Part shown: positions 6,566 through 30,172 of the stretch, one piece after another | Position numbering within the stretch: the stretch's first letter is position 1 | Layout: every line of letters starts with the position of its first letter | DNA from: Devosia sp. | Lineage (GTDB): Bacteria; Pseudomonadota; Alphaproteobacteria; Rhizobiales; Devosiaceae | Length of the DNA: 50,698 bases | NCBI GenBank assembly: GCA_026126125.1 | Contig: JAHCJW010000009.1 | Location: 1 to 50,698 of the forward strand | Direction: 5' to 3' | Notes under the pieces: model-generated | The model's database searches: none | What the model was told of the DNA's origin: nothing | The model's input: the letters and a program-made list of their open reading frames with translations, nothing else | Made by a program: the position numbers and the translations under genes

Positions 6566-6577
6566 CATGCACCACTT

Positions 6578-6614: not shown

Positions 6615-6692
6615 ATGACGCCAGAGTGCGTTGCCGACTACGGGCGTCATGCAATCGGGGCTAACCAAGATCAGTCTTTCAAGGGGGCTCAA

Positions 6693-11121: not shown

Positions 11122-11123
11122 TC

Positions 11124-12047: not shown

Positions 12048-12404
12048 ACCCACACGCATCGTCTCTCCAGCCAGTGATGGCGGCGTATGCCCGATGCGCT
12101 GGCTGAAGACCTTGCCCGCGCCGCACGAAATAGGAAAGTCCGTTGCCCTCCGAACCCAATCCCGATGATGGGAGCGATACCTTGCAGATTGTGACCAGCC
12201 AGCGGCAGGATCTGGCCCATATGGCCGCATTGTGCTCGAAGAACGGTCGTTGGCCCCCGAGACGACCACTCCCACCCGACAGGCACGGAGCACAAGGGGA
12301 GGCACTGGTGCTTAACCGTTGGAGAGGTGCGGACACAATTATCCGCTCTGATCGGCGCCATCGAGGGCAAAATAGCGGTCAGGCGACGGATTGAGGTGGA
12401 AACG
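12048..12404 (-). pseudogene. Gene-poor stretch with a possible degraded AraC-family C-terminus
   Basis: No intact gene is seen over 357 bases. On the minus strand between about 12070 and 12200 the frame IAPIIGIGFGGQRTFLFRA, continued in a second frame by AGKVFSQRIGHTPPS, resembles the second helix-turn-helix of AraC-type regulators with one frameshift. This is a weak match made by eye. A GCGGA-N8-TCCGC dyad (12329-12346) lies 59 bases before the next gene and could be an operator. Confidence 0.25.
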
Positions 12405-13619: not shown

Positions 13620-13775
13620 CCCAAGCTTGTTTTTCTCTTGGCGGCAAAAATTCGTCACCCATACCGTCACGATGCGACGCGGTTTTCTCAAGATCGTGAC
13701 AACAGGGCAGCTCGAAGACAGAGGGGTCTTGAGCTGCCAGAGGAAGCGGGCTGTGCCCCGCGAAGGGAGTATTCA

Positions 13776-14780: not shown

Positions 14781-14781
14781 C

Positions 14782-15387
14782 ATGACCGATGAGAAGCAGG
14801 TAACGCATCAGTCGGCCTCCGGGCCGACTGCAGTTCTGACACGGTTTGCCATCCCCGTTGAACGTTTCGGGGAAAAGCTGGCCCTGCTCGGCGAAATCCT
14901 GGCCGTCATCTCTCTGTGCGCCCTGATTCTCATCGTCGTCGTGCAGACAATAATGAGCATGCTGGCCTCGTATTTTCCCGCGGCAACCAGCGCCATGTCG
15001 GTTTCCTGGGAATATGCGGGCTATCTGATGGGTACGGCCTTCATGTTCGGCTTGTCGCAAACCTTGCGGCTGGGCGGGCATATCCGCGTCAATCTGATTT
15101 TTGACGGGCTCAGGCCCGCCCATCAGCGGATCATGGACCTCGTGGCTACCGTCTGTTCCATCACCGTGATGGTGATCCTCGCACAGGCGCTCACCGTCAT
15201 GACCATTCGCTCGATCACCAATAACAGCCTGTCCACCGCGAGCCTCACCCCGCTCTGGATTCCGCAGGGCGCCTTTGCCTTCGCGTCCTGGCTGTTCGCC
15301 CTGCAACTCGTTATCCGGGCGGTGTCGCTGATGGCGGGACGGCCGCCGGAACAGCCGCGCGAATATGTCGGGGCCTCTGCGGAATAG
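14782..15387 (+). CDS. dctQ: TRAP transporter small permease DctQ (copy 2)
   Basis: Small TRAP membrane subunit of 201 residues with four hydrophobic segments. The N-terminal cytoplasmic tail (about 30 residues) is longer than in copy 1. The motif WEYAGYLMGTAFMFGLSQTL is at about 75-94. It starts one base after the dctP stop codon, so translation is probably coupled. Confidence 0.9.
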   Translation: MTDEKQVTHQSASGPTAVLTRFAIPVERFGEKLALLGEILAVISLCALILIVVVQTIMSMLASYFPAATSAMSVSWEYAGYLMGTAFMFGLSQTLRLGGHIRVNLIFDGLRPAHQRIMDLVATVCSITVMVILAQALTVMTIRSITNNSLSTASLTPLWIPQGAFAFASWLFALQLVIRAVSLMAGRPPEQPREYVGASAE

Positions 15388-15435
15388 CGGCGCATCCGTC
15401 ATGTCCACGTCAACACCAATTTAGAGGGTAGGCAA

Positions 15436-16740
15436 TTGGATCTCTCCGCCATCGCCTTTCTTGCAATCGTCTTTGCCACCCTGCTCATGGGCATTTGGGT
15501 GGGGCTGGCCCTGCTGGTCAGCGCTGCGATTGTCGTCATGCTCTATACGAGCATTCCGATCGGGCCGCTGATGGCCCAGTACACGATGAACATCCTCACC
15601 ACGCCCGACCTCGTGGCCCTGCCCTTGTTCATCATCATGGGTGAATTTTTGTTCCGTACGCGGCTATCCGAGCGTCTGTTCTCGGGCCTTGCGCCCTGGG
15701 CCGGGTTGATGCCGGGTCGGCTCATCCATGTCAATGTGATCGCCTCCACCATCTTTGCCTCGATCTCTGGCTCCTCCGCCGCCACAACGCAGGTGGTCGG
15801 GCGCATGTCGCTCACCGAACTGTTGCGTCGCGGTTATGGCCGCGGCATTTCTGTGGGCAGCCTTGCCGGCGCCGGCACTTTGGGCCTGCTCATCCCGCCC
15901 AGTTCCATCATGATCATTTATGGTGTTCTGGCGCAGGAGTCGGTTTTGCGCCTGTTCGCTGCGGGTGTCTTCCCCGGGCTTCTGCTGGCAACGCTTTTTG
16001 TGCTCTACATCGTGGTTTGCGCGCTCATCAAGCCGGACCTGGTTCCTGAAAGCGAGCGCAAGCTCAGCGCCATGCCGATGCGTGATCGCCTGGCGGCGAC
16101 GGTCCATCTGCTGCCAGTTCTCGGACTCGTCATCCTCGTCATGGGGTCGATGTATGCGGGCTTTGCCACGCCAACGGAGGCCGCGGCATTTGGTGTTTTG
16201 GGTGCGGCACTGGTCGCCAAATTGGATGGAACCCTGAACCGGCAAAGTCTGCGGGAGATCGCCAAGGGCTCGGTGCAGACCTGTTCGATGATGGGCCTCA
16301 TCTTGGTGGGGGCGACCATTCTGAGCTTTGCCACCACTATTCTGGGCTATCCGCAGGCGCTCAACAACTGGGTCGCCACGATGGACCTGTCGCCACTGAT
16401 GCTCATCGCCATGATGCTGGTTGTCTATCTCCTCATGGGAACGTTCATGGACGGTTTTTCCATGATCGTGACGACGCTGCCGATCTTCCTGCCTCTGGCA
16501 GTGGCGGCCGGGTTCGACCCGATCTGGTTCGGTATCTTCATCATCGTGACCGTTGAGATGTCCAATGTCACACCGCCGGTGGGGTTCAATCTCTTCGTCA
16601 TCAACAAGCTGACCGGCGACAGCGTTGCCTATATCACCAAGCACACGATGCCATTCCTGCTGCTGATGTGTGCGATCGTCTTCATCCTGGTGTGGTTCCC
16701 ACAGATCGCCACCTGGCTGCCCTCGGCGCTGTATGGCTAA
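15436..16740 (+). CDS. dctM: TRAP transporter large permease DctM (copy 2)
   Basis: Large channel subunit of 434 residues, exactly the length of copy 1 and strongly similar along its length (FASISGSSAATTQVVG, GTLGLLIPPSSIMIIYG, PVGFNLFVINKLTG, ending LPSALYG in both). The start is TTG at 15436 with GAGGG at about 8 bases. It completes dctPQM copy 2 and is followed by a terminator facing the convergent lysR gene. Confidence 0.93.
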   Translation: MDLSAIAFLAIVFATLLMGIWVGLALLVSAAIVVMLYTSIPIGPLMAQYTMNILTTPDLVALPLFIIMGEFLFRTRLSERLFSGLAPWAGLMPGRLIHVNVIASTIFASISGSSAATTQVVGRMSLTELLRRGYGRGISVGSLAGAGTLGLLIPPSSIMIIYGVLAQESVLRLFAAGVFPGLLLATLFVLYIVVCALIKPDLVPESERKLSAMPMRDRLAATVHLLPVLGLVILVMGSMYAGFATPTEAAAFGVLGAALVAKLDGTLNRQSLREIAKGSVQTCSMMGLILVGATILSFATTILGYPQALNNWVATMDLSPLMLIAMMLVVYLLMGTFMDGFSMIVTTLPIFLPLAVAAGFDPIWFGIFIIVTVEMSNVTPPVGFNLFVINKLTGDSVAYITKHTMPFLLLMCAIVFILVWFPQIATWLPSALYG

Positions 16741-16805: not shown

Positions 16806-17732
16806 TCAGGCTTTGGCGTCGAGGCTGGGGTGGGCTTCACGCACGAGGCCGAGAAGTACCTCGTGAACGGCGAAGGCCGCGTCGGTCAGGCCTGTGCTGT
16901 CGGGTATGCAGATCGAGACCGGCATGGACATTGTCGGCGTCAGGGTCCGCGTGACGAGATAGCCTCCCTCCTGCATGGAGGCGGCCAGGCTGGTGGGCAG
17001 AATTACCGCGCCCAGACTATCGCGCAGGGCTGCAGCGAGGAGGCCGCGCGATTGGACTTCGGCCACGACAGTCGTCGCCAGGCCCGCATTGCGGCAATGG
17101 CGATCCACCATCTGACGCAGGAAAGACTCTTTGGCAGGCAGGATCAGTGGAGTTTTTGACAGAGCAAGGGCGTCGACGGGTCCCGTGTCTTCACCAATGA
17201 TTTCAGTCGAGCCCAGAAGGCAGAAGTCTTCACGGTAAAGCGTTTTGTAATGAAGGCCTCGTGGCGGTGTGTCGCCATAAAGCAAGGCCAAATCGATCTT
17301 GCCGCGCAGGACCAGTTCGCTATAGGCGACGCCGAATATATCGCTGACCTGAATCAGGAGGCCCGGGTGAGTTTGCCTGATCCTGCGCAATAGCGCGGGG
17401 GCGAGGAGGGAGGCCGAACTCCAGGGCGCCAGACCGACTGCAACATTGCCACTCAGCTCGCCCGAAACATTCTTGATGTTTCGGCGTGCTTCCTCGAGCT
17501 GGCGATGAATAGTACTGGCGTAGCGATAGAGAACCAGTCCCGCTTCGGTCGGTGTGACACCGCGCGGGCTACGGACCAGCAATTTGGCGCCGAAGTCCTG
17601 TTCGAGCCCGGCAATCTGCTGGCTCAGTGCGGGCTGGGCCAGCCTCAGCACACCTGCGGCGCGCGTAACGCTCCCGAGGTCCACGACTTTAACAAAGGCA
17701 TCGAGGCGACGAATATCCAAGGCTTTCTCCAC
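16806..17732 (-). CDS. LysR-family transcriptional regulator
   Basis: LysR regulator of up to 308 residues. The HTH is RRLDAFVKVVDLGSVTRAAG followed by LRLAQPALSQQIAGLEQDFG, then a substrate-binding domain from about residue 92. It is a paralogue of the partial LysR at the left edge (KALDIRRLDAF against RALDTRRLRAF). GTG at 17732 gives the longest frame, but GGAG overlaps it and lies 6 bases before TTG 17720, which corresponds to the CTG start of the paralogue. TTG 17720 is therefore the better start. It is the last gene of the pxpB-pxpC-pxpA-lysR operon, 54 bases after pxpA, and probably autoregulated with it. Confidence 0.9.
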   Translation of the reverse strand: MEKALDIRRLDAFVKVVDLGSVTRAAGVLRLAQPALSQQIAGLEQDFGAKLLVRSPRGVTPTEAGLVLYRYASTIHRQLEEARRNIKNVSGELSGNVAVGLAPWSSASLLAPALLRRIRQTHPGLLIQVSDIFGVAYSELVLRGKIDLALLYGDTPPRGLHYKTLYREDFCLLGSTEIIGEDTGPVDALALSKTPLILPAKESFLRQMVDRHCRNAGLATTVVAEVQSRGLLAAALRDSLGAVILPTSLAASMQEGGYLVTRTLTPTMSMPVSICIPDSTGLTDAAFAVHEVLLGLVREAHPSLDAKA

Positions 17733-17786: not shown

Positions 17787-18554
17787 CTATTGTGCAAGTT
17801 CTGTTGCCGGAGCGATGCCGCCGCCGGCCTCCTTAACCGCCTCCCGCACGGCTCGGGCGATCAGGCTGGCGCCCGGCGTGTCGCTATGGACGAGAATAGA
17901 CTGAGCCCGCATGTCGAGTGAACCACCATCGGCCGTGCGCACCTTGCCCGAAGTGACGAAATGGGCGACGCGTGCCTTGACCTCGGCGAGATCCTTGATG
18001 ACAGCGCCGGGCTGACCACGCGGCACCAATGTGCCATCGGAGCGGTAGGCCCGATCTGCAAGAAACATCTGGATGGTCTTGAGGCCGGCGGCGCGTGCTG
18101 AAGCTTCAACTGCGGTATCTGGCATGGAAAAGACGATAAGGCTGGGGTCGATCGCGACGATTGCAGCTGTCATGACGTCGGCAAGCGCGCGATCGGCCAG
18201 GGCCATATTACCGAAGGCTGCATGATAGCTGACATGGGTAACGCGATGTCCGGCGACTTTTGCAAAGCCCTGCAAGGCGCCGATCTGATAGATCAGCAAG
18301 TCGCGCATGTCGCCGTTGCTGACGGCCATGGTGCGGCGGCCAAAGCCGACCAGATCGGGCAAGCCTGGATGGGCGCCAATACCGACGCCACGTTCCTTGG
18401 CCTTGAGCACCGTGCGCCCCATGATCGTGGGGTCGCCGGCGTGAAAGCCGCAGGCCACGTTGGCCGAGGTCACCGTTTCGAGAAGCGCCAGATCGTCGCC
18501 GACAACGTAATTGCCGAAGCCTTCGCCCATGTCCGAATTGATGTCGAGTTTCAT
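17787..18554 (-). CDS. pxpA: 5-oxoprolinase subunit A-like (PxpA, LamB/YcsF family)
   Basis: Hydrolytic subunit of 255 residues, full length. It begins MKLDINSDMGEGFGNY and carries NVACGFHAGDP, GAHPGLPDLVGFGRR, FLADRAYRSDG, PGAVIKD and VHSDT. The motif I recall as KPHGALYN in classical PxpA reads VSYHAAFGN, again keeping His but losing Lys and Tyr, as in the copy at 1803. Its ATG overlaps the pxpC stop by four bases (ATGA), so the two are translationally coupled. Confidence 0.9.
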   Translation of the reverse strand: MKLDINSDMGEGFGNYVVGDDLALLETVTSANVACGFHAGDPTIMGRTVLKAKERGVGIGAHPGLPDLVGFGRRTMAVSNGDMRDLLIYQIGALQGFAKVAGHRVTHVSYHAAFGNMALADRALADVMTAAIVAIDPSLIVFSMPDTAVEASARAAGLKTIQMFLADRAYRSDGTLVPRGQPGAVIKDLAEVKARVAHFVTSGKVRTADGGSLDMRAQSILVHSDTPGASLIARAVREAVKEAGGGIAPATELAQ

Positions 18555-19531
18555 GCCCCGGCTTGCTCCTGATTGGTTGTTGCCGCGACCGCTTCGGCAC
18601 ATGCCTGACGCAGCTCGGAAAGGAAATCTTCGATGTCCCGCTGGGCTGCCTGTGCGGTTTCAAAATCCGTCTGGCGAAAGCGGACCTTGCTGCCCGGCTG
18701 CGCCTGCCCCAGCTGGTGCAGATCGGCTTCGATCACGCCGCCCATGCGTGGATAACCCCCGGCTGTGTTGGCGTCGCTGAGTTGAACGATCGGTTGCCCC
18801 GATGGGGGAAGCTGGATGATGCCGGCAACCACGCCATAGGAGCGCATTTCCATGGGAGCAGGCAATTTCAGTTCGGGGCCGCGAAGCCTGTAGCCGCCTC
18901 GATCACTTTGCGCTGTGACCAGCCAGACGGCCGTCCAGAATTGGCGCTGCAGCTCCGTTGGCAGGATGTCGAGTTCCGCACCTGGAATAACGCGGACGTC
19001 TAGTGTTCCTTGGGCAGCGGCAAGACCCGATGGTATATTGGCGCCAATTTCGACACTGGAATAGGGAAGCGTCGTCGTGGTGAGACGATCACCGGCCCGC
19101 AGTGCGCGCCCCTCCAGCCCCCCGAACCCATTGCGCAGGCTGGTGCTGCGCGAACCAAGAGTGAGCGGCACGCCAATGCCGCCCGCAACGGCAATGTAGG
19201 ACCGGGCGCCAGTGCGCGGCTGGCCGATGCGCAGCGTCTGGCCCGGCTTGGCCGACATGCTCCACCATGGCGGAAGGGGCATGCCGTCAAGGTCGGCTGG
19301 CGCATCGGTGCCGGTGAGCGCAAAGCGGGTTTCTGTCTCGAAGCGCAGAGTAAAGGGATAGGTTTGTATCTCGATGGCGGCGAAATCGGCGCCATTGCCG
19401 ACCAGAATATTGCCCACGCGGAGCGCCACGCTGTCCATGGCTCCCGACGTGGTAATGCCGATCGATCGAAGGCCAAAACGGCCCAGATCCTGGATGGTGT
19501 TGAGTTTGCCGCATTCGAGAATGCTGATCAT
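18551..19531 (-). CDS. pxpC: 5-oxoprolinase subunit C-like (PxpC/KipA, biotin-dependent carboxyltransferase family)
   Basis: Carboxyltransferase-domain protein of 326 residues, homologous to the KipA half of urea carboxylase and allophanate hydrolase subunit 2. Visible marks are LNTIQDLGRFGLRSIGITTSGAMD near 10-33, LGSRSTSLRNGFGGLEGR near 124-141, SDRGGYRLRGPEL near 210, SYGVVAGIIQLPPSGQPIVQLSD (split here as about 232-254) and GGYPRMGGVIEADL. ATGA overlaps join it to both pxpB and pxpA, as expected for a stoichiometric complex. Confidence 0.9.
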   Translation of the reverse strand: MISILECGKLNTIQDLGRFGLRSIGITTSGAMDSVALRVGNILVGNGADFAAIEIQTYPFTLRFETETRFALTGTDAPADLDGMPLPPWWSMSAKPGQTLRIGQPRTGARSYIAVAGGIGVPLTLGSRSTSLRNGFGGLEGRALRAGDRLTTTTLPYSSVEIGANIPSGLAAAQGTLDVRVIPGAELDILPTELQRQFWTAVWLVTAQSDRGGYRLRGPELKLPAPMEMRSYGVVAGIIQLPPSGQPIVQLSDANTAGGYPRMGGVIEADLHQLGQAQPGSKVRFRQTDFETAQAAQRDIEDFLSELRQACAEAVAATTNQEQAGA

Positions 19532-20223
19532 AGCAGCACTCTTTCGGCGCGAAAGCGGACGTGGTCACCTGATTTGAGCATCGAAGGGTCCGCGGCAGTG
19601 GCGTCGAACAGGCGCATTTCCGAGAAACCGATGGCGTTCCAGCCGTTCGGCCCGGTGGTCACCGCGACACCGGTCAACATGCCGCCGATCGTCACCGAAC
19701 CGGCTGGCATGTTCAGCGATGGCGTCGTCTTGCGGGGCATGTGAATGCGATGATCGAGGCCATGAAGGTAGCCAAAGCCCGGGGAACTCGCGACCGTCAC
19801 CACGGTATAGCGTCCCTCTTCGTGAATGCGGATCACGTCGCTAGGGGTCAGCCCATTGCGTTTCGCGACGGCCTCGAGGTCGATTGCCGCTTCGCCACCA
19901 TAGGTCACTGGAATTTCGATCAAACGGCCGGCTATCGTCTTGGGAGGCAGGATTTGCCAGGCCTTCTGGATGCGGTCCGCCAGGGCCATCGCGTCGAGGC
20001 AGCCGGTCCGGGTGAGCACGACAAGAAGATTGGTGACGCCCGCGACGATTTCCTCGACCTCTGGCCAGTCGGAAATATGGTCGGCCAAACCCCAGATGCG
20101 CTGTTGCACCGAGATCTCGAACTCGCCCGGCGCATCAAACATCAGGGCGCGCGAGCCGATATGGCTTTGCGCCAGGCGGTCGGCAACGAGAGGGGCAATC
20201 AAATTGGGTGCTGAAATGTCCAT
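19528..20223 (-). CDS. pxpB: 5-oxoprolinase subunit B-like (PxpB/KipI family)
   Basis: KipI-type subunit of 231 residues, paralogous to the copy at 1071 (VAGVTNLLVVL, IEIPVTYGG, SSPGFGYLHGLD, GWNAIGFSEMRLFD). ATG 20223 (MDISAPN) is preferred; a TTG at 20280 would add a proline-rich head and has no good ribosome site. It is the first gene of the minus-strand pxpBCA-lysR operon, divergent from rraA across a 282-base control region. With PxpC it should form the ATP-dependent activating half. Confidence 0.88.
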   Translation of the reverse strand: MDISAPNLIAPLVADRLAQSHIGSRALMFDAPGEFEISVQQRIWGLADHISDWPEVEEIVAGVTNLLVVLTRTGCLDAMALADRIQKAWQILPPKTIAGRLIEIPVTYGGEAAIDLEAVAKRNGLTPSDVIRIHEEGRYTVVTVASSPGFGYLHGLDHRIHMPRKTTPSLNMPAGSVTIGGMLTGVAVTTGPNGWNAIGFSEMRLFDATAADPSMLKSGDHVRFRAERVLL

Positions 20224-20297
20224 GGCCAATCGCAGGGGCAAGAATGGCACGACAATAGGTAGCAGCGGGCCTAGCGACAAAGCGCGTCTGGCTCTGT

Positions 20298-20355: not shown

Positions 20356-20505
20356 CGATTTGCCCATGGATCACGCCAGATTGCCGCCAGTCGCGGGGGA
20401 GCCGTGGGCTGACTGATCGGCGTGCCGAATGTCGCTCGCGCGGTGGTTCTGAAACTTCTCCGCCCTGTTCATTGCCCGTCCCGGCGTCATTGGAGGAGAT
20501 ATTTC

Positions 20506-21174
20506 ATGGCCCATGTCATTCGCAATTTTACCCGCCCGTCGAAGGCCGATATCGAGGCCATCGGCAAGTTCAGCCCGGCCACGATTCATGAGGCGCAGGG
20601 CAAGCTGGGTGCGCTCGATCCGCGCATCAAGCCGATCCAGCCTGGTCTGCAGCTCGTTGGCCCGGCGATCACGGCCAAGTGCCATATCGGTGACAATCTG
20701 ATGATTTTCGAAGCCATCAATCTGGCGCAGCCGGGCGACGTTCTCGTGCTCAGCGCCGGCGACAATCCGGACCAGGGTGGCTTTGGCGACGTGCTCGCCG
20801 CTGCCTGTATCGGCAAGGGTATTGCCGGCCTGGTAATCGATGCGGGTGTGCGTGACGGACGCGGCCTGCGCCAGATCCGCTTGCCGGTGTTCTCGCTTGG
20901 CCTGTCCATCAAGGGTACGTCCAAGGACACGCTCGGCACCATCAACCATCCTGTTGTGGTCGGCGGAGAGTTGATCACGCCCGGCGACATCATCGTTGCC
21001 GACGACGATGGCGTAGTGGTTGTGCGTACCGATGATGTGGCCAAGCTCGCCAAGGCCTGCCAGGACCGCGAAGACAGCGAAGCCAAGCTGATCGAAATGC
21101 ACCGCAGCGGCCGTATGGAAATCGAGGACCGCTATGCCATGATGCGCTCGAAGGGTTGCGTTTGGTCGGACTGA
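20506..21174 (+). CDS. RraA-family protein (HMG/oxaloacetate aldolase-like)
   Basis: RraA-like protein of 222 residues. Many relatives are divalent-metal aldolases or decarboxylases acting on 4-hydroxy-4-methyl-2-oxoglutarate or oxaloacetate. The active-site stretch is LVIDAGVRDGRGL near 111-123, where the Arg-Asp pair binds pyruvate and metal in characterised members. GDNPDQGGFGDVLAAA near 86 is the usual second block. The start has GGAGGAG nearby. It opens the operon rraA-denD-SDR-idnO-idnK, so a sugar-acid aldolase or decarboxylase is more likely than an RNase E regulator. Confidence 0.85.
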   Translation: MAHVIRNFTRPSKADIEAIGKFSPATIHEAQGKLGALDPRIKPIQPGLQLVGPAITAKCHIGDNLMIFEAINLAQPGDVLVLSAGDNPDQGGFGDVLAAACIGKGIAGLVIDAGVRDGRGLRQIRLPVFSLGLSIKGTSKDTLGTINHPVVVGGELITPGDIIVADDDGVVVVRTDDVAKLAKACQDREDSEAKLIEMHRSGRMEIEDRYAMMRSKGCVWSD

Positions 21175-21206: not shown

Positions 21207-22190
21207 ATGCATGTTCTCGTTGTGGGAGCGGCCGGGATGATCGGTCGCAAACTGGTCCAGAGGCTTGTCGGCGACGGGAAACTCAATGGCGACGATATCG
21301 GCAGGCTTACGCTTGCCGATATCGTGCCTGTCCCCGTTCCCGCCGGCACCGCCGATGTGGTGGTGGTGACCGCTGACCTGTCGCAGGGCGGCGAAGCGGA
21401 GCGCCTCATTGGCCTGCGTCCCGATATCATTTTCCACCTCGCTGCCGTGGTTTCAGGTGAGGCGGAAGCAGATTTCGACAAGGGCTACCAGATCAATCTC
21501 GATGGCACGCGATGTCTGTTCGAGGCGATCCGCCTCGAGGGACAGAAGGAGCCCTATTGCCCGCGCGTGGTGTTCTGTTCGTCGCTGGCCGTTTTTGGGC
21601 CCCCCTTCGCTTCACCGATCGACGATGATTTCCTCACTGCGCCTTTGACCAGCTATGGGACGCAGAAGGCGATGGCCGAACTGCTGCTGTCCGACTATAG
21701 CCGCCGCGGCTTCTTCGATGGTGTCGGTATTCGCCTTCCCACCATCTGCATCCGGCCTGGCAAGCCCAATGCCGCAGCGTCAGGCTTCTTTTCCAACATC
21801 CTGCGCGAGCCGCTGGTGGGGCAGGAGGCCGTGCTGCCGGTCGAGGAGGGCGTGCGTCACTGGTTTGCCAGCCCACGCGCGGCCATTTCATTCCTGATTC
21901 ATGCGGCAGGGATCGACCTTTCCGGGCTCGGTGCCCGGCGGAACCTGATCATGCCGGGGCTTTCGGCCACCGTGGCCGACCAGTTGGCCGCGCTTGAATC
22001 TGTAGCGGGGGCCGGGGCGAGACGGCTTGTGCGGCACGAGCCGGATGCGCGTATCCAGGCAATTGTCGACGGCTGGGCCTTCGACTACGCGCCCAGGCTC
22101 GCACTGTCGCTGGGATTTCGCGCCGAAACCACATTTGGCGAGATCATCGCCGCGCATATCGAAGACGAACTGGGAGGCAATCTACCGTGA
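21207..22190 (+). CDS. denD: D-erythronate dehydrogenase-like NAD-dependent epimerase/dehydratase (DenD)
   Basis: Extended SDR of 327 residues. The NAD loop is [11 protein letters not shown] at 6-16, with [17 protein letters not shown] near 77, SSLAVFG near 118 and [10 protein letters not shown] as the Tyr-Lys pair near 149. The combination and length match DenD, which oxidises D-erythronate at C2 in four-carbon acid-sugar pathways. The RraA-like neighbour and absence of an OtnK kinase mean that the exact acid is uncertain. It lies 32 bases after rraA. Confidence 0.78.
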
Positions 22191-22927
22191 CATCGATCGC
22201 TTTGGTCACCGGTGCCGGAACGGGAATCGGCAAGGCCATTTCACGCGCCCTGGTGGAGGCGGGTTTTTCGGTCGTGTTGACCGGAAGGCGCGTCGAGCTG
22301 CTTGATGCGGTCGCGGCGGAAATTGGCGGCGACACCCTCGTTCACGCTGCCGATATTGGTATTGAAAGCCAGGTCGACGCGCTTTTTGTCGCCATTGTGG
22401 AACGCTATGGGCGTCTTGATCTATTGGTGAACAATGCCGGCATGTCGACGCCTGCCGTAGCGATAGACGAGCTGGATGTCGCGCTTTGGCATCAGGTCGT
22501 GGCAGTCAATCTCACCGGCGCGTTCCTGTGCACGCGGGCCGCCTTCCGTCAGATGAAGGCGCAGACCCCGCAGGGCGGCCGCATCATCAACAATGGCTCC
22601 ATTTCGGCGACGACGCCACGCCCCCATTCGGCGCCTTATGCATCGACCAAGCACGCCATCACCGGATTGACCAAGTCTTCGGCCCTGGATGGGCGGGCAT
22701 TCAACATCGCCTGCGGCCAAATCGACCTGGGCAATATCACCTCCGATATGACCACCAATATGAGTGCCGGCGTATTGCAGGCCAATGGCACTTATGCGCC
22801 CGAGCCGACCATTGATGTGGCGCTGGTGGGCAAGGCTGTCGCCGATATGGCGCGGCTGCCGCTGGAAGCCAATGTGCTGACCATGACGCTGATGGCAACC
22901 GGCATGCCCTTTGTTGGGCGCGGCTAA
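22187..22927 (+). CDS. SDR-family oxidoreductase
   Basis: Classical SDR of 246 residues. TGAGTGIG is at 8-15, NNAG near 84, a Ser in NNGSISA and YASTK as the catalytic pair. The unusual tail [14 protein letters not shown] appears instead of the common PG-x-V loop. A GTG start overlaps the denD stop (GTGA), so the two are coupled. It likely oxidises or reduces a C3 or C4 position of the aldonate handled by DenD; specificity is not readable. Confidence 0.86.
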
Positions 22928-22952
22928 TACTGATCGAGTAGAGGGACATTTC

Positions 22953-23720
22953 ATGGCTGCAAGGCATTTCGATCTCACCGACCGGCTGTGTCTGGTGACG
23001 GGCTCGAGCCAGGGCATCGGGCTGGCTCTGGCGCGGGGGCTGGCTGAATATGGCGCGCGGATCGTGTTGAATGGCCGCGATCCGGACCGTCTGGCGCAGG
23101 CGGCCGAGATACTGCGCACCGAAGGCCGTGACGTCTATATGTCATCGTTCGATGTGACCTCATCCGATGAAGTCGCCGGTGCGGTCGAAAAGATCGAGCG
23201 CGATATCGGACCGATCGAGGTTCTGGTCAACAATGCGGGCATGCAGTTCCGCACGCCGCTTGAAGACTATCCAGCCGACCGTTGGGAGCAGTTGCTCGCG
23301 ACCAATATTTCCAGCGTTTTCTATGTAGGGCAGGCAGTGGCGCGTCACATGATTGCCCGTGAACACGGGAAAATCATCAATATTGCCTCGGTGCAGGCCG
23401 AACTGGCGCGTCCCGGCATTGCCCCCTACACGGCGACCAAGGGCGCCGTCCGCAACCTGACGCGCGGCATGTGTACCGACTGGGCCAGGCACGGGCTGCA
23501 GATCAATGCCATTGCACCGGGCTATTTCAAGACGCCGTTGAATCAGGCGCTTATCGATAGCGCCGAATTTTCCGCCTGGCTCGAAAAGCGGACGCCAGCA
23601 GGACGGTGGGGGAATGTCGAGGAACTGGTGGGCGCTGTGGTATTTTTGGCATCGGACGCGGCCAGCTTCGTCAATGGCCACACGCTCTATGTCGACGGCG
23701 GCATCACGGTTTCGCTCTGA
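22953..23720 (+). CDS. idnO: Gluconate 5-dehydrogenase-like SDR (IdnO)
   Basis: SDR of 255 residues with the features of 5-keto-D-gluconate reductase. FDLTDRLCLVTGSSQGIG opens the protein, NGRDPDRLAQAAEIL follows, and later come NNAGMQFRTPLEDY, NIASVQAELARPGIAPYTATKGA (here split as about 142-164) and the C-terminal VDGGITVSL. ATG 22953 has AGAGGGA upstream. It would convert 5-ketogluconate, the product of IdnD, into D-gluconate. It lies directly before the gluconokinase gene. Confidence 0.84.
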   Translation: MAARHFDLTDRLCLVTGSSQGIGLALARGLAEYGARIVLNGRDPDRLAQAAEILRTEGRDVYMSSFDVTSSDEVAGAVEKIERDIGPIEVLVNNAGMQFRTPLEDYPADRWEQLLATNISSVFYVGQAVARHMIAREHGKIINIASVQAELARPGIAPYTATKGAVRNLTRGMCTDWARHGLQINAIAPGYFKTPLNQALIDSAEFSAWLEKRTPAGRWGNVEELVGAVVFLASDAASFVNGHTLYVDGGITVSL

Positions 23721-23723
23721 CCG

Positions 23724-24227
23724 ATGATGCGGCGTGTCGTGGTCATGGGCGTCAGCGGATGCGGAAAGTCGACCCTGGGTGAGGCAATCGCCGATCATTG
23801 GGGCCTGCCCTTCATCGAAGGGGATAGCCTGCACTCAAGCGAGAGCGTCGCCAAGATGGCGGTCGGTGTCGCATTGGAAGACCGAGATCGCTGGCCATGG
23901 CTGGATCGGGTCGGCGCGGCATTGCGAGAAACGACGGCTGGTGGCGTTGCCAGTTGCTCGGCCCTGCGCCGAGTCTATCGCGACAGGCTGCGCAATGCCG
24001 TGGGTGCGGACGTTCGTTTCGTCATGCTGGACTTGCCCCGCGACGTTCTGGCGGAACGGATGAAGCATAGGCCGGGGCATTATATGCCGGCGGCCCTGCT
24101 CGACAGTCAGCTCCAGACGCTTGAGCGCCCCGATGGAGAAGGTGATGTGCTGGTCATCGATGGTACGCAAACCATAGAGGCGATGGTCCGCGCGGTGACC
24201 GTCTGGCCGATGATCTGGCGACGTTGA
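23724..24227 (+). CDS. idnK: Gluconokinase, GntK/IdnK family
   Basis: Small P-loop kinase of 167 residues. GVSGCGKST at 9-17 is the Walker A motif. GLPFIEGDSLHSSESVAKM near 28-46 is the gluconokinase substrate lid, and CSALRRVYRDRLR near 78-90 is diagnostic. HYMPAALLDSQLQTLE near 117 completes the family pattern. It phosphorylates D-gluconate to 6-phosphogluconate for the Entner-Doudoroff or pentose-phosphate route. The start lies 3 bases after the idnO stop. Confidence 0.93.
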   Translation: MMRRVVVMGVSGCGKSTLGEAIADHWGLPFIEGDSLHSSESVAKMAVGVALEDRDRWPWLDRVGAALRETTAGGVASCSALRRVYRDRLRNAVGADVRFVMLDLPRDVLAERMKHRPGHYMPAALLDSQLQTLERPDGEGDVLVIDGTQTIEAMVRAVTVWPMIWRR

Positions 24228-24262
24228 AAGAAATGCCGGTGCCCGGAGGCCTCGGCCTTAGC

Positions 24263-24295
24263 GCGGCGTGCGTTCTATCGAACGCAAATCGCCGC
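24263..24295. terminator. Two-tier hairpin between convergent idnK and idnD
   Basis: An outer stem GCGGCG/CGCCGC (24263-24268, 24290-24295) encloses an inner stem GCGTTC-TATC-GAACGC (24270-24285). It sits in the 134-base gap between convergent operons and is a likely bidirectional terminator, although it lacks a long T-run. Confidence 0.5.
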
Positions 24296-24361
24296 TCTCA
24301 TCCCGTGTTTAACCATCGGATGACCCAAAACCGTGAGGACAGTTTCGGGCCGATGCTTTAG

Positions 24362-25393
24362 TCATGCCATCTCGATCTGGACTTTCATCGCCTGTTCACG
24401 GTTGGACGCCAACTGGAAGGCCTCCAAAGCCTTGGCCATGGGCATGGTGTGGGTGATCAAGGGTTTTACGTCGATCAGTCCGCCCTGCATGAGTTTGACG
24501 GCGGTGGCGAATTCCTCGTGGAAACGGAACGAGCCCCTGAGGGAGAGTTCCTTGACGGTGATCGCCTGAACCGGCAGCGTCATGTCTCCGCCCATACCGA
24601 CCTGCACCAGCACACCCTGGGGACGAACGGCGGCAATGCCGCTGGCCAAGGCTGCGGGCGCGCCCGAGCATTCCAGGTGAATGTCGAAATAGCCCTTGCC
24701 GGTCTGGAACGCTGGCATGGCGTCCGTGTCTTTGGCGGTATTGATGGCGCGGTCGGCCCCGGCGGTCAGCGCATGGGTCAGGGTCTGGTCGGTGATGTCG
24801 GTCACGACGATTTCGGCGGCACCCGCGCGTCGCGCAGCCAGCGCGCAAAGAACACCAATCGGACCGCTACCCGTAATGAGAACCTTCTTGCCAAGGATTT
24901 CGCCCGCCTGTCGCACGCCATGAAGACAGACTGCGAGAGGTTCTGCCATGGCCGCTTCACCCGATGTGAGGCCATTGGCGGGAATGCACTGGGTCTGATC
25001 GGCGACCAGTTCCTGGCGGAAGGCGCCCTGATTGTGAGGGAAGGGCATGGCCGAACCATAGAAGCGCATATTGAGGCAGTGGTTCTGCTTTCCTTCCTGG
25101 CAATACTGGCAATGGCCGCAGGGTCTGGATGGGCTGACAGCGACGAGATCGCCGATCGTGAGGCCCGCTACGCCTTCGCCCAAGGCCGCGACTCGGCCGG
25201 AGACTTCGTGGCCAAGAATCATCGGCTCCCGGAGCCGTACCGCACCAAAGCCGCCGTGGTTGAAATAGTGCAGGTCCGATCCGCAAATGCCGCCTCGCTC
25301 GATGCGGACAAGCACCTGGCCTGCGCCTAGGGCTTCTATGTCCCGGTCTTCGATCCGCAAGTCCTTGGCGGCGTGTATGACGAGTGCGCGCAT
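24362..25393 (-). CDS. idnD: L-idonate 5-dehydrogenase (zinc alcohol dehydrogenase family)
   Basis: Zinc-dependent medium-chain dehydrogenase of 343 residues. Catalytic zinc ligands appear as Cys37 and His62-Glu63 (GGICGSD and GHE). The structural zinc site has Cys92, Cys95, Cys98 and Cys106. SGEAAMAEPLAVCLHG near 142 and the NAD loop GSGPIGVLCA follow. HYFNHGGFGAVRLREPMILGHE (about 42-63, split) is characteristic of IdnD. The ATG at 25393 (MRALVIHAAKD) is preferred over an upstream start that would overlap its neighbour. It oxidises L-idonate to 5-ketogluconate and pairs with idnO/idnK on the opposite strand. Confidence 0.9.
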   Translation of the reverse strand: MRALVIHAAKDLRIEDRDIEALGAGQVLVRIERGGICGSDLHYFNHGGFGAVRLREPMILGHEVSGRVAALGEGVAGLTIGDLVAVSPSRPCGHCQYCQEGKQNHCLNMRFYGSAMPFPHNQGAFRQELVADQTQCIPANGLTSGEAAMAEPLAVCLHGVRQAGEILGKKVLITGSGPIGVLCALAARRAGAAEIVVTDITDQTLTHALTAGADRAINTAKDTDAMPAFQTGKGYFDIHLECSGAPAALASGIAAVRPQGVLVQVGMGGDMTLPVQAITVKELSLRGSFRFHEEFATAVKLMQGGLIDVKPLITHTMPMAKALEAFQLASNREQAMKVQIEMA

Positions 25394-25400
25394 CAGAGCC

Positions 25401-26348
25401 TCACAGAACATGCGTTGGAAGAGGGCGGCCATCGAAGTGGGCCGAGAGGTTGTCGAGCATCAGCGCGCCCATGGCGCGGCGCGTTGCCTCGGTGGCCGAG
25501 CCGTGATGGGGCTGGAGCAACACATTGCTCAATCTGCGAAATCGCGGATCGAGCCTGGGTTCGCCTTCGAATACGTCAAGGGCCGCCGCGCCGAGCCGGC
25601 CGGTTTCGAGCGCATCGAGCAATGCAAGCTCATCGATATTTGAGGCGCGAGACACATTGACGAGCAGACCATTTGGCCCGAGGGCGTGGATGACGGATTC
25701 GTTGACGATATGGCGGGTCGCCGCGCCGCCCGTCAGTGTGACGAAGAGCACATCGCTCCATTCCGCCAGAGCCAGCGCATTGTCGATAAAGGTAAAATTG
25801 GGAGCGTCGTTTCGGGGGGAGCGGTTGGTATAGGCGATCTCCATATCGAAACCGACCAGACGCCGAGCCACTTCCATGCCGATACGGCCCATGCCCAGAA
25901 TGCCGACCTTCTGCCCGAAGGCGCGGCGCTGCAGCGACAGGGGACCCTTTTCGGCCCAGTTTCCTGTACGCACCCAGGCATCGCCGGCAACGATGCCGCG
26001 GGCCTGGGCCAGCATCATGGTGACGGCGAGATCGGCTACGTCCTTGGTCAGCACGTCCGGCGTATTGGTCACGCGAATGCCGCGCTCGCGGGCGGCGTCG
26101 AGATCGACCGCATCATAGCCAACGCCATAGACCGAAATGATTTCGAGATTTGGCAGCGCAGCGATCAGGTCGCGCTTGGCGCCGAGTTCGCCGCGTGTGG
26201 CGATGCCCCTGATTTCGTTGGCATGCTGACGAATGAAAGCCTCCTTGTCGGAGGCCTCGAAATAGCGGTGCATCGTGAATCTAGCGTCCAGCGCCCCAAC
26301 GTCCCATGCGGGGTAGGGGCCCATTTGCAGAATGTGAGGTTTGCTCAT
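25401..26348 (-). CDS. 2-hydroxyacid dehydrogenase (2-ketogluconate/glyoxylate reductase type)
   Basis: D-isomer-specific 2-hydroxyacid dehydrogenase of 315 residues. The NAD loop GILGMGRIG is at about 149-157. The catalytic triad is Arg234 (NVSRASN), Glu263 (FEGEP) and His281 or His282 (QPHHGSATEATR). It fits the GhrB-like group that reduces 2-ketogluconate, glyoxylate or hydroxypyruvate. It is the first gene of the minus-strand pair with idnD, 7 bases upstream. In context it would convert 2-ketogluconate or 2-keto-L-idonate-type acids to aldonates. Confidence 0.88.
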   Translation of the reverse strand: MSKPHILQMGPYPAWDVGALDARFTMHRYFEASDKEAFIRQHANEIRGIATRGELGAKRDLIAALPNLEIISVYGVGYDAVDLDAARERGIRVTNTPDVLTKDVADLAVTMMLAQARGIVAGDAWVRTGNWAEKGPLSLQRRAFGQKVGILGMGRIGMEVARRLVGFDMEIAYTNRSPRNDAPNFTFIDNALALAEWSDVLFVTLTGGAATRHIVNESVIHALGPNGLLVNVSRASNIDELALLDALETGRLGAAALDVFEGEPRLDPRFRRLSNVLLQPHHGSATEATRRAMGALMLDNLSAHFDGRPLPTHVL

Positions 26349-26434
26349 CGCCGGCTCGTCCAGATCAATACAATGCCCAACAAGCTAGCAAACCCATATG
26401 CGCGCGTGATCTGCTCGTGCCGCGATATGGCGAT

Positions 26435-26449
26435 AGCAAAGCCTTATGG
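26435..26449 (-). promoter_or_regulatory. LysR-like box between the hydroxyacid dehydrogenase and accB
   Basis: On the minus strand CCATAAGGCTTTGCT, extended by ATC, gives ATA-N9-TAT and T-N11-A. It matches the site at 3480 at 13 of 15 positions. It lies in the 248-base divergent gap, so it could control the hydroxyacid dehydrogenase-idnD pair, the accB operon, or both. Nothing else is evident in the gap. Confidence 0.48.
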
Positions 26450-26596
26450 TTGGGGGCCTTGTGGCGGTCTATCCATGGGCTGTTTCCAATGGACCCATTG
26501 CACAAAGTTCTGGCCCCATTCCGGCGATGGCGTGTTAGCCAATCACAAGGTGGCGGATAGATCCGTCTTTGGCAAACCACTGGACTTGGCGAACTC

Positions 26597-26989
26597 ATGG
26601 ACCTCGATCGTCTCAAGGAAATTCTGGACTGGATGGAGCGGTCTTCCGTTGCCGAACTGCAGATATCCGATGGCGATTTCGAGGTTCATCTGAAAAAGGC
26701 AGAGGGCGCGGTCGGTGCTCCGCCAATTGCGGCCGTTGTGCCCGAAAGGCCAGCCGGTCATGAGGTCGTTTCCACCAGTTTCGGTGTCATCCATCTGCGC
26801 CCCGCGCCCGATAGTCCGCCATTCGTGACCCTGGGGCAGACGGTCGTCGTGGGGCAGTCGCTCTGCACGATCGAAGCCATGAAAGTGTTCAGTCCGATCG
26901 AGGCTGAGCGTGCGGGCAAGATTGCGGCCATCCTGATTGAAGACGGCGCCGAAGTCGGCGCGGGTCACGCCCTGTTCCGGATCGAGTAG
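26597..26989 (+). CDS. accB: Biotin carboxyl carrier protein (AccB type)
   Basis: Carrier protein of 130 residues. The AccB N-terminal motif is LDRLKEILDWMERSSVAELQ (3-22), a linker spans about 35-58, and the biotinyl barrel follows with EAMKV, Lys96 being the biotin site. It is shorter than a typical housekeeping AccB because the linker is reduced. It lies 3 bases before accC and is followed by a pxpC-like gene, so it probably shuttles CO2 to a PxpC-type acceptor rather than to acetyl-CoA carboxyltransferase. The ribosome site is weak. Confidence 0.88.
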   Translation: MDLDRLKEILDWMERSSVAELQISDGDFEVHLKKAEGAVGAPPIAAVVPERPAGHEVVSTSFGVIHLRPAPDSPPFVTLGQTVVVGQSLCTIEAMKVFSPIEAERAGKIAAILIEDGAEVGAGHALFRIE

Positions 26990-26992
26990 GTC

Positions 26993-28360
26993 ATGTTCGA
27001 TACGCTGCTCATCGCCAATCGTGGCGAAATCGCCTTGCGCATCCAGCGCGCCGCCAAAGGGCTTGGTCTTAGGACCGTCTGCGTCTACTCCCAAGCCGAC
27101 GCTGGCGCGCCCTATCTTGAAATTGCCGACGAAGCGATCTGCATCGGGCCGGCGCCGGCGCGCAACAGCTATCTCAATGTCGATGCCATCGTGCTCGCCG
27201 CCTTGCAGACCGGGGCAGGCGCTATTCATCCGGGCTATGGTTTCCTGTCGGAAAATGCTGAGTTTGTCGATACGATTCAAGCAGCCGGACTAACCTTCGT
27301 GGGCCCCAGCGCCAAGTGCATCCGTACCATGGGCGACAAAGTTGCCGCCAAGCGCGCCATGATTGCCGCTGGCGTGCCCTGTGTTCCGGGCCCCGATAGT
27401 GCGCTTCCGGCCGATATCGCCTCGATCAAGGCGGTGGCCGATGAAATCGGCTATCCCGTTATTCTCAAGGCCGCCGGCGGCGGCGGCGGTCGTGGTATGC
27501 GCGTCGTGCGCAGCGGTGATGAATTGGCGGCGGCGGCGGCGTTGACCCGCGAGGAAGCACAGCGCTTCTTCAACAATCCCGACATCTATATCGAAAAATT
27601 CCTGCAAAATCCGCGGCATGTGGAGATTCAGGTGCTTTGCGACGCCCATGGCACCGCCCTTTGGTTGGGCGATCGGGATTGCTCCATGCAGCGGCGGCAC
27701 CAGAAAGTGATCGAAGAGGCGCCGGCGCCCGGCATCGACCGCTCACTGATCACCGAGGTTGGCGAGCGTTGCGCAAATGCCTGCCGTCAGATCGGCTATG
27801 TCGGCGCCGGCACATTTGAATTTCTTTATGAGGATGGAGAATTCTACTTCATCGAAATGAATACGCGGGTGCAGGTGGAACATCCGGTCACCGAAATGGT
27901 TACCGGGATCGACATTGTCACGCTGCAGATCCAGGTGGCGATGGGGCTTCCCCTCACTCTCTCGCAGTCGGATATCGTGACGCACGGACATTCAATCGAA
28001 TGCCGCATCAATGCCGAAGATCCCTATAGTTTCCTGCCCTCGCCGGGCACCGTGACGGGCATGGTCCTGCCGGCGGGGGAAGGGGTTAGGCTCGATACCC
28101 ATATCCGTTCTGGCTACACCATTCCCAGCCAGTACGACTCGATGATCGCCAAACTGATCGTGCATGGCGAGGATCGTCAGGAAGCGCTGGTGCGCATGCG
28201 GGCCGCTCTTGCCGCTTTCGAAGTGCAGGGCATAGTAACCAATATTGCGCTTCAGGCCGACCTCATGCGTGACGGTGGCTTCGTCGCAGGGGGCGTCAAC
28301 ATTCACTACCTTGAACATTGGCTGACTGCGCGTTCGGCCCAGTCGGGGGCGGCGGCATGA
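26993..28360 (+). CDS. accC: Biotin carboxylase (AccC type)
   Basis: ATP-grasp biotin carboxylase of 455 residues, normal length. It opens with LLIANRGEIALRI, has HPGYGFLSENAEF near 80, the glycine lid AAGGGGGRGMRV near 160-171, the RHQKVIEEAPAPG segment near 238 and the catalytic EMNTRVQVEHPVTE near 287. All expected catalytic residues appear intact. Its stop codon overlaps the start of the pxpC-like gene (ATGA). Inferred role: carboxylates the AccB biotin for a carboxyltransferase made with the PxpC-like protein. Confidence 0.93.
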   Translation: MFDTLLIANRGEIALRIQRAAKGLGLRTVCVYSQADAGAPYLEIADEAICIGPAPARNSYLNVDAIVLAALQTGAGAIHPGYGFLSENAEFVDTIQAAGLTFVGPSAKCIRTMGDKVAAKRAMIAAGVPCVPGPDSALPADIASIKAVADEIGYPVILKAAGGGGGRGMRVVRSGDELAAAAALTREEAQRFFNNPDIYIEKFLQNPRHVEIQVLCDAHGTALWLGDRDCSMQRRHQKVIEEAPAPGIDRSLITEVGERCANACRQIGYVGAGTFEFLYEDGEFYFIEMNTRVQVEHPVTEMVTGIDIVTLQIQVAMGLPLTLSQSDIVTHGHSIECRINAEDPYSFLPSPGTVTGMVLPAGEGVRLDTHIRSGYTIPSQYDSMIAKLIVHGEDRQEALVRMRAALAAFEVQGIVTNIALQADLMRDGGFVAGGVNIHYLEHWLTARSAQSGAAA

Positions 28361-29340
28361 TCGAGATCTTGAGCACTGCACCACTGTCCATGGTGCAGGA
28401 TACAGGGCGTGTCGGTTTTTACCGGGATGGCGTCGGGCGATGTGGCGCGATGGATACCATATCGCTTGCCCTGGGCAATCTGCTCCTCGCCAATGATCGC
28501 AATGCCGCGGCGATCGAAGTCCCCATTCTGCCCTTTTCCGTGCGGTTCTCCAAAGACGTGGATATCGCGGTCATGGGGGCGGATTGCGCGACACGCCTCG
28601 GCGATCTTGAATTGCCCCCTGACTGGGCTATTAGGGCGCAAGCCGGCGAGGTTCTGACCCTGTCGGCGCCGCGCTCCGGGTGCCGGGCCTATCTGTGCGT
28701 GGGTGGCGGCATAGATGTGCCGGAAGTGTTGGGATCGCGCAGTACGCAGTTGCGCGGCGAATTTGGCGGGCTCGACGGGCGCATGCTCAGGAAGGGCGAT
28801 CAGTTGTCAGCCGGGCGAGGCGAGACGCGCTTGCCCCCTGCGGGCATGGGCGTTGGGCCGGCGCTGGCGGCACTGCCGCTGGGGGAGGGCGGTGCCGTTC
28901 ATGTCCGCGTGCTGCCCGCTTCCGAATATGGCCTCTTTACCGTCGAGTCCCATGCCGCGCTCTGGGAGAGTGACTGGACCGTCACGCCGCAAAGCAATCG
29001 CTCCGGCTATCGGCTTTCGGGCAGCCAGCTGCGGATGGAAAGCCCCGTGGAACTGCGCTCGCATGGCGTGGTTCCCGGCGTCATTCAGGTGCCCGCAGGT
29101 GGGGCGCCGATCATTCAGCTTGCCGATGCGGCGACGATGGGAGGCTATCCCAAGATCGGCACCGTGATCGAGGCCGATCTGTGGCGTCTGGGGCAGGCAC
29201 GTCCGGGCGACATGCTGCGGTTTGTCCAGGCAAGCTATGACGATTCCCTGTTGGCGCTCGATCAGGTGGAAACCTACCTGAGATCGGTCGAAGCCATGGC
29301 AACACGTTTGCGCGGGGCTGCAGCGGGGTGGATCAGATGA
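28357..29340 (+). CDS. PxpC/KipA-like biotin-dependent carboxyltransferase family protein
   Basis: A 327-residue protein of the KipA/urea carboxylase carboxyltransferase half. It shows LSMVQDTGRVGFYRDGVGRCGAMD (about 8-31, split), LGSRSTQLRGEFGGLDGR near 125, QSNRSGYRLSGSQL near 212, SHGVVPGVIQVP near 235 and MGGYPKIGTVIEADLWRL. No pxpB or pxpA adjoins it. Instead it is coupled by ATGA overlaps to accC upstream and to a lysine-less AccB-like gene downstream, which argues for a biotin-dependent rather than purely ATP-dependent reaction. A PxpB partner could come from 1071 or 19528. Confidence 0.86.
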   Translation: MIEILSTAPLSMVQDTGRVGFYRDGVGRCGAMDTISLALGNLLLANDRNAAAIEVPILPFSVRFSKDVDIAVMGADCATRLGDLELPPDWAIRAQAGEVLTLSAPRSGCRAYLCVGGGIDVPEVLGSRSTQLRGEFGGLDGRMLRKGDQLSAGRGETRLPPAGMGVGPALAALPLGEGGAVHVRVLPASEYGLFTVESHAALWESDWTVTPQSNRSGYRLSGSQLRMESPVELRSHGVVPGVIQVPAGGAPIIQLADAATMGGYPKIGTVIEADLWRLGQARPGDMLRFVQASYDDSLLALDQVETYLRSVEAMATRLRGAAAGWIR

Positions 29341-29711
29341 TCACAGTCGACGATCTCGATCGCATGCTGGCCCTTATGGGCGAACATGGCCTGCAGATGC
29401 TGGACGTGCGGGAAGGCGAGACGCGCGTCCGGATCGTTCTGGGGCGGGGGCCGCCAGAACCCGTCAAGATGAGCGTGAAAACCATCATTAAGACTGAGGC
29501 AATAGGCACTTTTGTCCCGACTCATCCGCGTTTGGCGGTGCCAATGGTGGCTGTGGGCGACAAGGTGATGGAGCGTGAGATCGTTGGCTTCCTGGCGTCG
29601 GGGGCAGTGCTAATGCCGATCCGTGCAAGCGCTTCTGGCCACGTGACAAGCATTCATGCGAGGCCGGGTGAACTGCTCGGCTTTGGGGCACCAGTGCTAA
29701 GTCTGGCTTAG
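29337..29711 (+). CDS. AccB-like biotinyl-domain protein lacking the biotin lysine
   Basis: A 124-residue AccB-shaped protein. The N-terminal motif VDDLDRMLALMGEHGLQMLD is at 4-23, followed by a basic linker and a biotinyl-type barrel from about 56. Aligned with the accB in the same operon, the EAMKV biotin site corresponds to ASGAV, so Lys96 is replaced by Ala90. ATG 29337 overlaps the upstream stop (ATGA), giving an exact coupling, and is preferred to GTG 29328. It ends accB-accC-pxpC-accB'. A structural, lipoyl/biotinyl-like docking or regulatory role is inferred. Confidence 0.78.
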   Translation: MITVDDLDRMLALMGEHGLQMLDVREGETRVRIVLGRGPPEPVKMSVKTIIKTEAIGTFVPTHPRLAVPMVAVGDKVMEREIVGFLASGAVLMPIRASASGHVTSIHARPGELLGFGAPVLSLA

Positions 29712-30082: not shown

Positions 30083-30172
30083 TGGCGGAGAGAAAGGGAT
30101 TCGAACCCTTGAGACGGTTCCCCGCCTACACACTTTCCAGGCGTGCGCCTTCGACCACTCGGCCACCTCTCC
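30083..30172 (-). tRNA. tRNA-Ser (anticodon GGA)
   Basis: Class II tRNA with a long variable arm, read on the minus strand from GGAGAGGTGGCCGAGTGG to CTCTCCGCCA. The anticodon loop is CTGGAAA with anticodon GGA (reads UCC and UCU). The T-arm is GGTTCGAATCC, and CCA is encoded. The acceptor ends pair. Serine tRNAs are frequent integration targets, and its 3' end faces the accessory region on the left. Confidence 0.97.

Follow-up and report, generated by a model that had tools for sequence, protein, structure and literature searches.

A biotin carboxylase operon with 5-oxoprolinase subunit genes in Devosia sp. as a possible lactam-opening system

In the DNA of Devosia sp. analysed here (assembly GCA_026126125.1, contig JAHCJW010000009.1, positions 1 to 50,698; in the following, the window means this whole stretch of 50,698 nucleotides), genes for a biotin carboxyl carrier protein (BCCP; accB), a biotin carboxylase (BC; accC), a KipA-type 5-oxoprolinase subunit (pxpC) and a second carrier-family protein (accB') lie in a row at 26597-29711. 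An earlier note on this DNA had read the four genes as a split urea carboxylase with a new acceptor. Our analysis revealed that the operon is real, conserved and wider than these four genes. Judged from sequence comparison, its best explanation, to which we assign a probability of about 0.5, would be a biotin-dependent, ATP-driven lactam-opening system of six proteins (AccB, AccC, PxpB, PxpC, AccB' and PxpA) that feeds a catabolic pathway.

Genes and conservation of the operon

All four open reading frames were intact (Table 1), and for accB' an alternative GTG start was found at 29328. The tight ATGA coupling described in the earlier note holds for the accC/pxpC and pxpC/accB' junctions, while accB and accC are separated by a gap of three bases. 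Comparison with family models bore out the reading as biotin carboxylase, Lys96 carrier and KipA/PxpC half: AccC scored 648 bits against TIGR00514 (cut-off 626.5), PxpC 327 bits against TIGR00724 (cut-off 230.2), and both carriers, AccB and AccB', matched PF00364. AccC aligned without gaps with two solved bacterial biotin carboxylases in the alignments displayed, and its residues at 15 active-site positions are those that we take to be present in the E. coli enzyme. Thus, a carrier predicted to be biotinylatable, an apparently intact biotin carboxylase and a linked carboxyltransferase-type subunit, the general features of a biotin-dependent carboxylase, seem to be combined here. Apart from the four genes, the pxpB at 1071 passed TIGR00370 (174 vs. 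145.6 bits) and the pxpA at 1803 the subfamily model NF003814 (305.7 vs. 226). Other models were not reached, namely the PxpC equivalog NF045499 by PxpC (299.5 vs. a cut-off of 500), the acetyl-CoA carboxylase BCCP model by AccB (95.7 vs. 115.2) and the urea carboxylase model TIGR02712 (cut-off 1303.85 bits, for one BC-KipA-KipI-BCCP chain), against which AccC, PxpC and AccB gave part scores of 486.8, 174.4 and 27.3, respectively.

A scan with PxpC showed that the gene set recurs in relatives. Among the best 80 loci of the matches listed, 19 carried accC and 18 of these held all six families, so that accB, accC, pxpC and accB' indeed co-occur with pxpA and pxpB, as a neighbourhood survey proposed in the earlier note was meant to find out. 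The order accB-accC-pxpB-pxpC-accB'-pxpA was found in 14 of the 19; of the other five, L037 and L051 are truncated by the end of a contig or locus, whereas in L045, L055 and L071 the genes are ordered differently. Sources of the loci in this set include Neorhizobium, Bradyrhizobium, Variovorax, Roseococcus, Aureimonas and Sinirhodobacter, and 14 further loci harbored accB' without accC, namely 12 from Enterobacterales and L069 and L070, both with accB. Annotated examples were present in public records of Paracoccus sp. MA, R. leguminosarum UPM791 (pRlvE) and B. pyrrocinia BX1, where the genes are named as acetyl-CoA carboxylase subunits, biotin carboxyl carrier protein, biotin-dependent carboxyltransferase family protein, hypothetical protein and 5-oxoprolinase subunits.

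In the congener G338 the operon is intact, with pxpB between accC and pxpC and pxpA after accB', and the window from 22197 to 29424 aligned with it in four collinear DNA blocks of 68-75% identity. The best matches of accB, accC, pxpC (28357), pxpB (1071) and pxpA (1803) of the window were all operons of this kind (class I, see below), the second-best match of pxpA being enterobacterial. Based on these matches and the gene order in G338, pxpB and pxpA appear to have moved 24 kb away in the window, and the four genes are probably the remainder of a conserved accB-accC-pxpB-pxpC-accB'-pxpA operon. The best matches of the second pxpABC set (Table 1) include L055, the set of L051 that lacks accBC, and Enterobacterales. 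On contig C112 of the same genome, all six families were found again on one strand in the order aminotransferase-accB-pxpB-pxpC-accB'-pxpA-accC. In the window, the operon belongs to a larger gene set with the displaced pxpB-pxpA pair, the second accB'-type gene and the second pxpABC set; neither this set nor the copy on C112 was pointed out in the earlier note. Among 36 congeners, only G338 revealed an accB' match, of 104.6 bits, that clearly exceeded the background of carrier proteins (the next best scored 51). A match to CT_A_B, the domain of PxpC, was present in 36/36. These congener matches are mostly of a lower-scoring, plain-looking type; the own genome holds three high-scoring copies, and that type was not seen in it, perhaps owing to incompleteness.

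Architectures, the lysine-less carrier and neighbouring pathway genes

The frequency of the linkage was determined in a phylum sample of 299 genomes, 102 of which had CT_A_B. All CT_A_B places with an open frame below 900 aa were taken with stretches of ±8 kb, excluding three places in the own genome, three fragments and 38 long chains, which left 98 unfused PxpC loci. A biotin carboxylase was found near PxpC in 23 of them, at most about 3.6-3.7 kb away; about 2 would be expected by chance, as computed from the six biotin carboxylase genes of the own genome, and chance neighbourhood was thus rejected. The 23 loci split into three architectures: class I with accB' (5 loci), class II (6) and class III (12). 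Class II is organized as pxpA-accB-accC-pxpB-pxpC (L119, L120, L123, L128, L131 and L155), with pxpA distant in L155 and unseen in L123, which ends at a contig edge. Class III (L135, L142, L144, L151, L152, L156, L157, L158, L162, L168, L170 and L178) carries a BC-BCCP fusion (12/12) beside a PxpB-PxpC fusion (11/12), with pxpA. One locus, L148, is class I by rule and was kept in the counts, its second carrier being unlike accB' and its PxpC grouping with a plain one. In a FastTree tree of 180 PxpC rows, class III formed one clade, and class I and class II required 5 and 2 changes, respectively, compared with means of 11.7 (class III), 26.4 (class I) and 6.0 (class II) for shuffled labels on the same tree; this class test used earlier labels, and the two larger trees were made by fast methods without bootstrap. 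Before the neighbour counts given below, L043 and L054 were relabelled as the enterobacterial type E, L103 as plain, and L069 and L070 as 'B'. The row L023:782-1268 was left out of alignment A2 because of a wrong frame.

The second carrier lacks the biotin site throughout its family. Lysine at this site was found in 0/41 accB' proteins compared with 32/33 accB proteins, so that we rejected accB' as a pseudogene. The AMK position is frequently taken by a G-x-[LIV]-x-x-P-like pattern, an HP pair was (nearly) invariant in an alignment of 20 accB', and [HY]P occurred somewhere in 41/41, which is a weak test. Moreover, accB' is retained where accBC is missing, and no fusion of accB' to another subunit was detected in 180 annotated loci. 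AccB' may therefore serve the Pxp part as a docking or scaffold subunit with no catalytic role. Its missing lysine poses the question of why a carrier unable to bear biotin is kept.

Neighbouring genes were counted at 25 class I, 13 enterobacterial E and 121 plain loci, with unequal locus lengths, genes of the window as queries and self-chosen thresholds. The 13 E loci (L040, L042, L043, L046-L050, L052-L054, L057 and L132) carry accB' and pxpABC without accBC nearby. An aminotransferase homologue was found near 22/25 class I, 13/13 E and 1/121 plain loci, a short-chain dehydrogenase/reductase (SDR) near 18/25, 12/13 and 0/121, a Nac-like LysR regulator near 18/25, 13/13 and 0/121, and an RraA homologue near 18/25, 4/13 and 0/121. 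None of these four was detected in the class II (6) or class III (12) loci. In contrast, 2-hydroxyacid dehydrogenase (3/25), kinase (2/25) and TRAP transporter genes (1/25 vs. 11/121 plain) are not markers of class I. In the public records, aminotransferase and SDR genes lie beside the operon in all three strains named above, and an RraA-family gene in Paracoccus sp. MA and B. pyrrocinia BX1. This recurrence narrows the search for the substrate and argues for a putative pathway for an amino-acid-like lactam over plain 5-oxoproline salvage. At L047, the one enterobacterial-type locus examined for transport, an amino-acid ABC transporter was found.

Mechanism and rival explanations

In the proposed six-protein system, AccC would carboxylate the biotin of AccB at the expense of ATP, with bicarbonate as carboxyl source. 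The carboxyl group would pass to PxpB/PxpC, which would activate a lactam similar to 5-oxoproline, and PxpA would open the ring, with loss of the carboxyl group. The AspB-like enzyme could then transaminate the resulting amino acid to a 2-oxo acid, which the RraA-type enzyme could cleave or decarboxylate. As a guess, a 4-hydroxylated 5-oxoproline would fit a transaminase and an aldolase, a guess that is weakened by the low counts of RraA at E loci and of 2-hydroxyacid dehydrogenase at class I loci. The more specific proposal that a 5-oxoproline-type lactam is activated for PxpA on PxpB/PxpC by carboxybiotin instead of phosphate, with the biotin-dead AccB' as a subunit and relatives in three architectures, is tentative, and we would put the odds somewhat against it.

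Several results speak against a role of biotin in the Pxp reaction. Lys1605 is described as the most likely general base of the carboxyltransferase of urea carboxylase in the part of PMC5770610 that treats it. We located this residue in the solved urea carboxylase chain and aligned it to PxpB, where the corresponding residue is Lys in 22/22 urea carboxylases and 5/5 class II rows, but Arg in 25/25 class I rows. Arg was likewise found in 12/12 class III, 14/14 mixed 'E' and 122/123 plain rows (L118 was treated as plain; L119 has no PxpB row, so that class II is represented by 5/6 loci; and the 'E' rows comprise ten enterobacterial ones, the second pxpB of the window, L069, L070 and L103). With self-chosen thresholds, no PxpB or PxpC column separated biotin-linked from plain proteins except PxpC 279, where urea carboxylase and the biotin-linked classes mostly have Gly and 80% of plain rows have Ala. 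PxpB/PxpC residues thus failed as markers of biotin use in class I. Furthermore, Enterobacterales form a branch within class I in a quick PxpC tree, and this branch has kept accB' and the pathway genes without accB/accC nearby; in 7/9 enterobacterial genomes, accC was found only as one apparently housekeeping copy and in fused chains of urea carboxylase length, and L069 and L070 have accB and accB' with no accC near. The Arg at the general-base position and the losses of accBC argue against a simple urea carboxylase mechanism, while the conserved linkage of accBC with the Pxp genes argues for some role of biotin. As a separate observation, class II is perhaps the truer split carboxyltransferase, its five aligned PxpB rows having kept the urea carboxylase Lys.

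The main rival is that PxpB/PxpC keep an ATP-phosphorylating chemistry and that AccB/AccC are accessory, e.g., as a source of activated bicarbonate or by carboxylation of an intermediate further down the pathway. Class I PxpB indeed has Arg155 and Gln174 (25/25 each) like most plain PxpB, the enterobacterial branch manages with the gene set and no dedicated accBC nearby, PxpB/PxpC are assumed to phosphorylate 5-oxoproline in the relevant passage of PMC13274462, and carboxyphosphate-mediated activation is among the mechanisms that the corresponding passage of PMC8453981 discusses for caprolactamase. Since the link between biotin carboxylase and PxpC occurs in three architectures, with the BC-BCCP and PxpB-PxpC chains adjacent in class III, and class II PxpB holds the urea carboxylase Lys, we consider this explanation doubtful, though it has to be taken seriously. 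Prokaryotic 5-oxoprolinase PxpABC is one of the closest known systems, its three families and plain-type PxpB residue pattern all being present here; unlike PxpABC, the operon adds AccB, AccC and AccB' as well as the transaminase, RraA, SDR and LysR genes, and its PxpC stays below the equivalog cut-off given above.

A split urea carboxylase acting on urea or a close analogue, with an allophanate-like product, is improbable in our view. Its modules (biotin carboxylase, carrier, KipA/KipI-type carboxyltransferase) are identical in kind, TIGR02712 gives partial scores with both AccC and PxpC, and the three CT_A_B matches of the own genome are all unfused, so that this assembly (91% complete, 302 contigs) shows no fused urea carboxylase. 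Here, however, the modules are separate chains, class I PxpB has Arg for the general-base Lys, no allophanate hydrolase exceeded its cut-off in the incomplete genome (two matches lay below), pxpA, transaminase and RraA genes are present instead, and 8/9 genomes with enterobacterial-type loci possess fused chains of urea carboxylase length. Of the proposal in the earlier note, the tie of AccB/AccC to Pxp subunits is supported, while the reading as a split urea carboxylase is not supported as it was put.

Even less probable is that ordinary second acetyl-CoA carboxylase subunits lie beside a 5-oxoprolinase gene by happenstance. AccC does exceed the equivalog cut-off for acetyl-CoA carboxylase, and both genes are publicly annotated accordingly, but AccB stays below that of its model and the linkage recurs across Alpha- and Betaproteobacteria. 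Acetyl-CoA carboxylase genes also sit elsewhere in the own genome: a separate accB-accC pair is located on contig C94, with the apparent end of the same accC on C54, and accA (C263) and accD (C231) exceeded their cut-offs on those contigs only. Profile searches of the genome with accA, accD and PF01039 (matches confined to C277, C263 and C231) revealed no acetyl-CoA carboxyltransferase on the contig of the operon, in line with the earlier note, and the possibility it had named as fatal to its reading, that the operon holds the only acetyl-CoA carboxylase copies of the cell, is ruled out. At a further locus (L022, C238), another accB-accC pair is followed by a gene whose 488-aa product looks, by eye, like a carboxyltransferase of the pyruvate carboxylase B/HMGL type.

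Related gene sets have been recorded before. P. aeruginosa PA0493-PA0496 is presumably class II-like, without accB'. Passages of PMC6249292, PMC8768829 and PMC5521831 name it as an operon in which genes for a biotin-requiring enzyme and a subunit resembling acyl-CoA carboxylase accompany two listed as allophanate hydrolase, similar in kind to those described here, and state the function of PA0493/PA0494 as unknown. The same gene kinds appear in passages of genome papers (PMC12427679, PMC10308929), as an extra BCCP and BC copy and pxpB/pxpC in Lactiplantibacillus pentosus and as a three-gene cluster in SAR11. Unlike in our reading, these papers take them for an additional acetyl-CoA carboxylase and an incomplete 5-oxoprolinase, or consider a possible role in urea degradation, and the L. 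pentosus paper, in its passage on these genes, draws no link between the two pairs. Split urea carboxylase-like genes were noted without function in 2011 in a passage of PMC3199775, whose list of biotin carboxylases has acyl-CoAs, pyruvate and urea as substrates. A search of the open-access literature, with subscription papers mostly outside it, revealed no functional study of, or function assigned to, the six-gene operon. If true, biotin-dependent lactam opening would be a new substrate class for biotin carboxylases and would provide a function for operons annotated as acetyl-CoA carboxylase plus 5-oxoprolinase subunits in rhizobia, Paracoccus and Burkholderia, with a related type in P. aeruginosa.

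Other features of the window

Table 1. Features of the operon and its surroundings in the window
Feature	Position	Strand	Remarks
pxpB	1071-1751	+	apparently displaced from six-gene operon; best matches are class I pxpB
pxpA	1803-2579	+	apparently displaced from six-gene operon
SDR oxidoreductase	2592-3344	+	recurs with class I operons
TRAP transporter	3562-6565	+	DctP by model; DctQ, DctM by eye; no class marker
AspB-like aminotransferase	6567-7913	+	nearest model PRK06107, 489 bits, below cut-off 617; start uncertain, ~6693
Second accB'-type gene	12327-12779	+	no biotin lysine
Nac-like LysR regulator	16806-17732	-	271 bits, model cut-off 309
pxpA, second pxp set	17787-18602	-	
pxpC, second pxp set	18551-19531	-	
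pxpB, second pxp set	19528-20280	-	
RraA-family protein	20422-21174	+	passes 4-carboxy-4-hydroxy-2-oxoadipate aldolase/oxaloacetate decarboxylase model, 214.5 vs. 179 bits
Two SDRs, kinase, alcohol dehydrogenase, 2-hydroxyacid dehydrogenase	22187-26348		partly collinear with congener's cluster
accB	26597-26989	+	biotin carboxyl carrier, 130 aa, Lys96 in IEAMKVF
accC	26993-28360	+	biotin carboxylase, 455 aa, active-site residues retained
pxpC, class I	28357-29340	+	KipA-type, CT_A_B; 327 aa
accB'	29337-29711	+	carrier family, no biotin lysine; 124 aa from ATG 29337
tRNA-Ser(gga)	30083-30172	-	just past operon, at GC border

The GC content is 0.59-0.625 in the first 30 kb of the window and rises to 0.63-0.68 thereafter, and this step, together with the tRNA-Ser(gga) gene at the border, suggests an acquired island. 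Positions 29701-50698 had no match within the 59.7-kb stretch of G338, in which no tRNA gene was found. The kinase at 22187-26348 was read as a gluconokinase and had no Pfam match at 1e-10. The TRAP transporter genes at 3562-6565 are related to a second set at 13638-16740 (66% DNA identity over 940 bases of DctM), and between both sets lie putative sugar genes, namely an AraD-like gene at 7928, a ribulokinase-like gene at 8592 and two TIM-barrel isomerase-like genes at 10288-12047.

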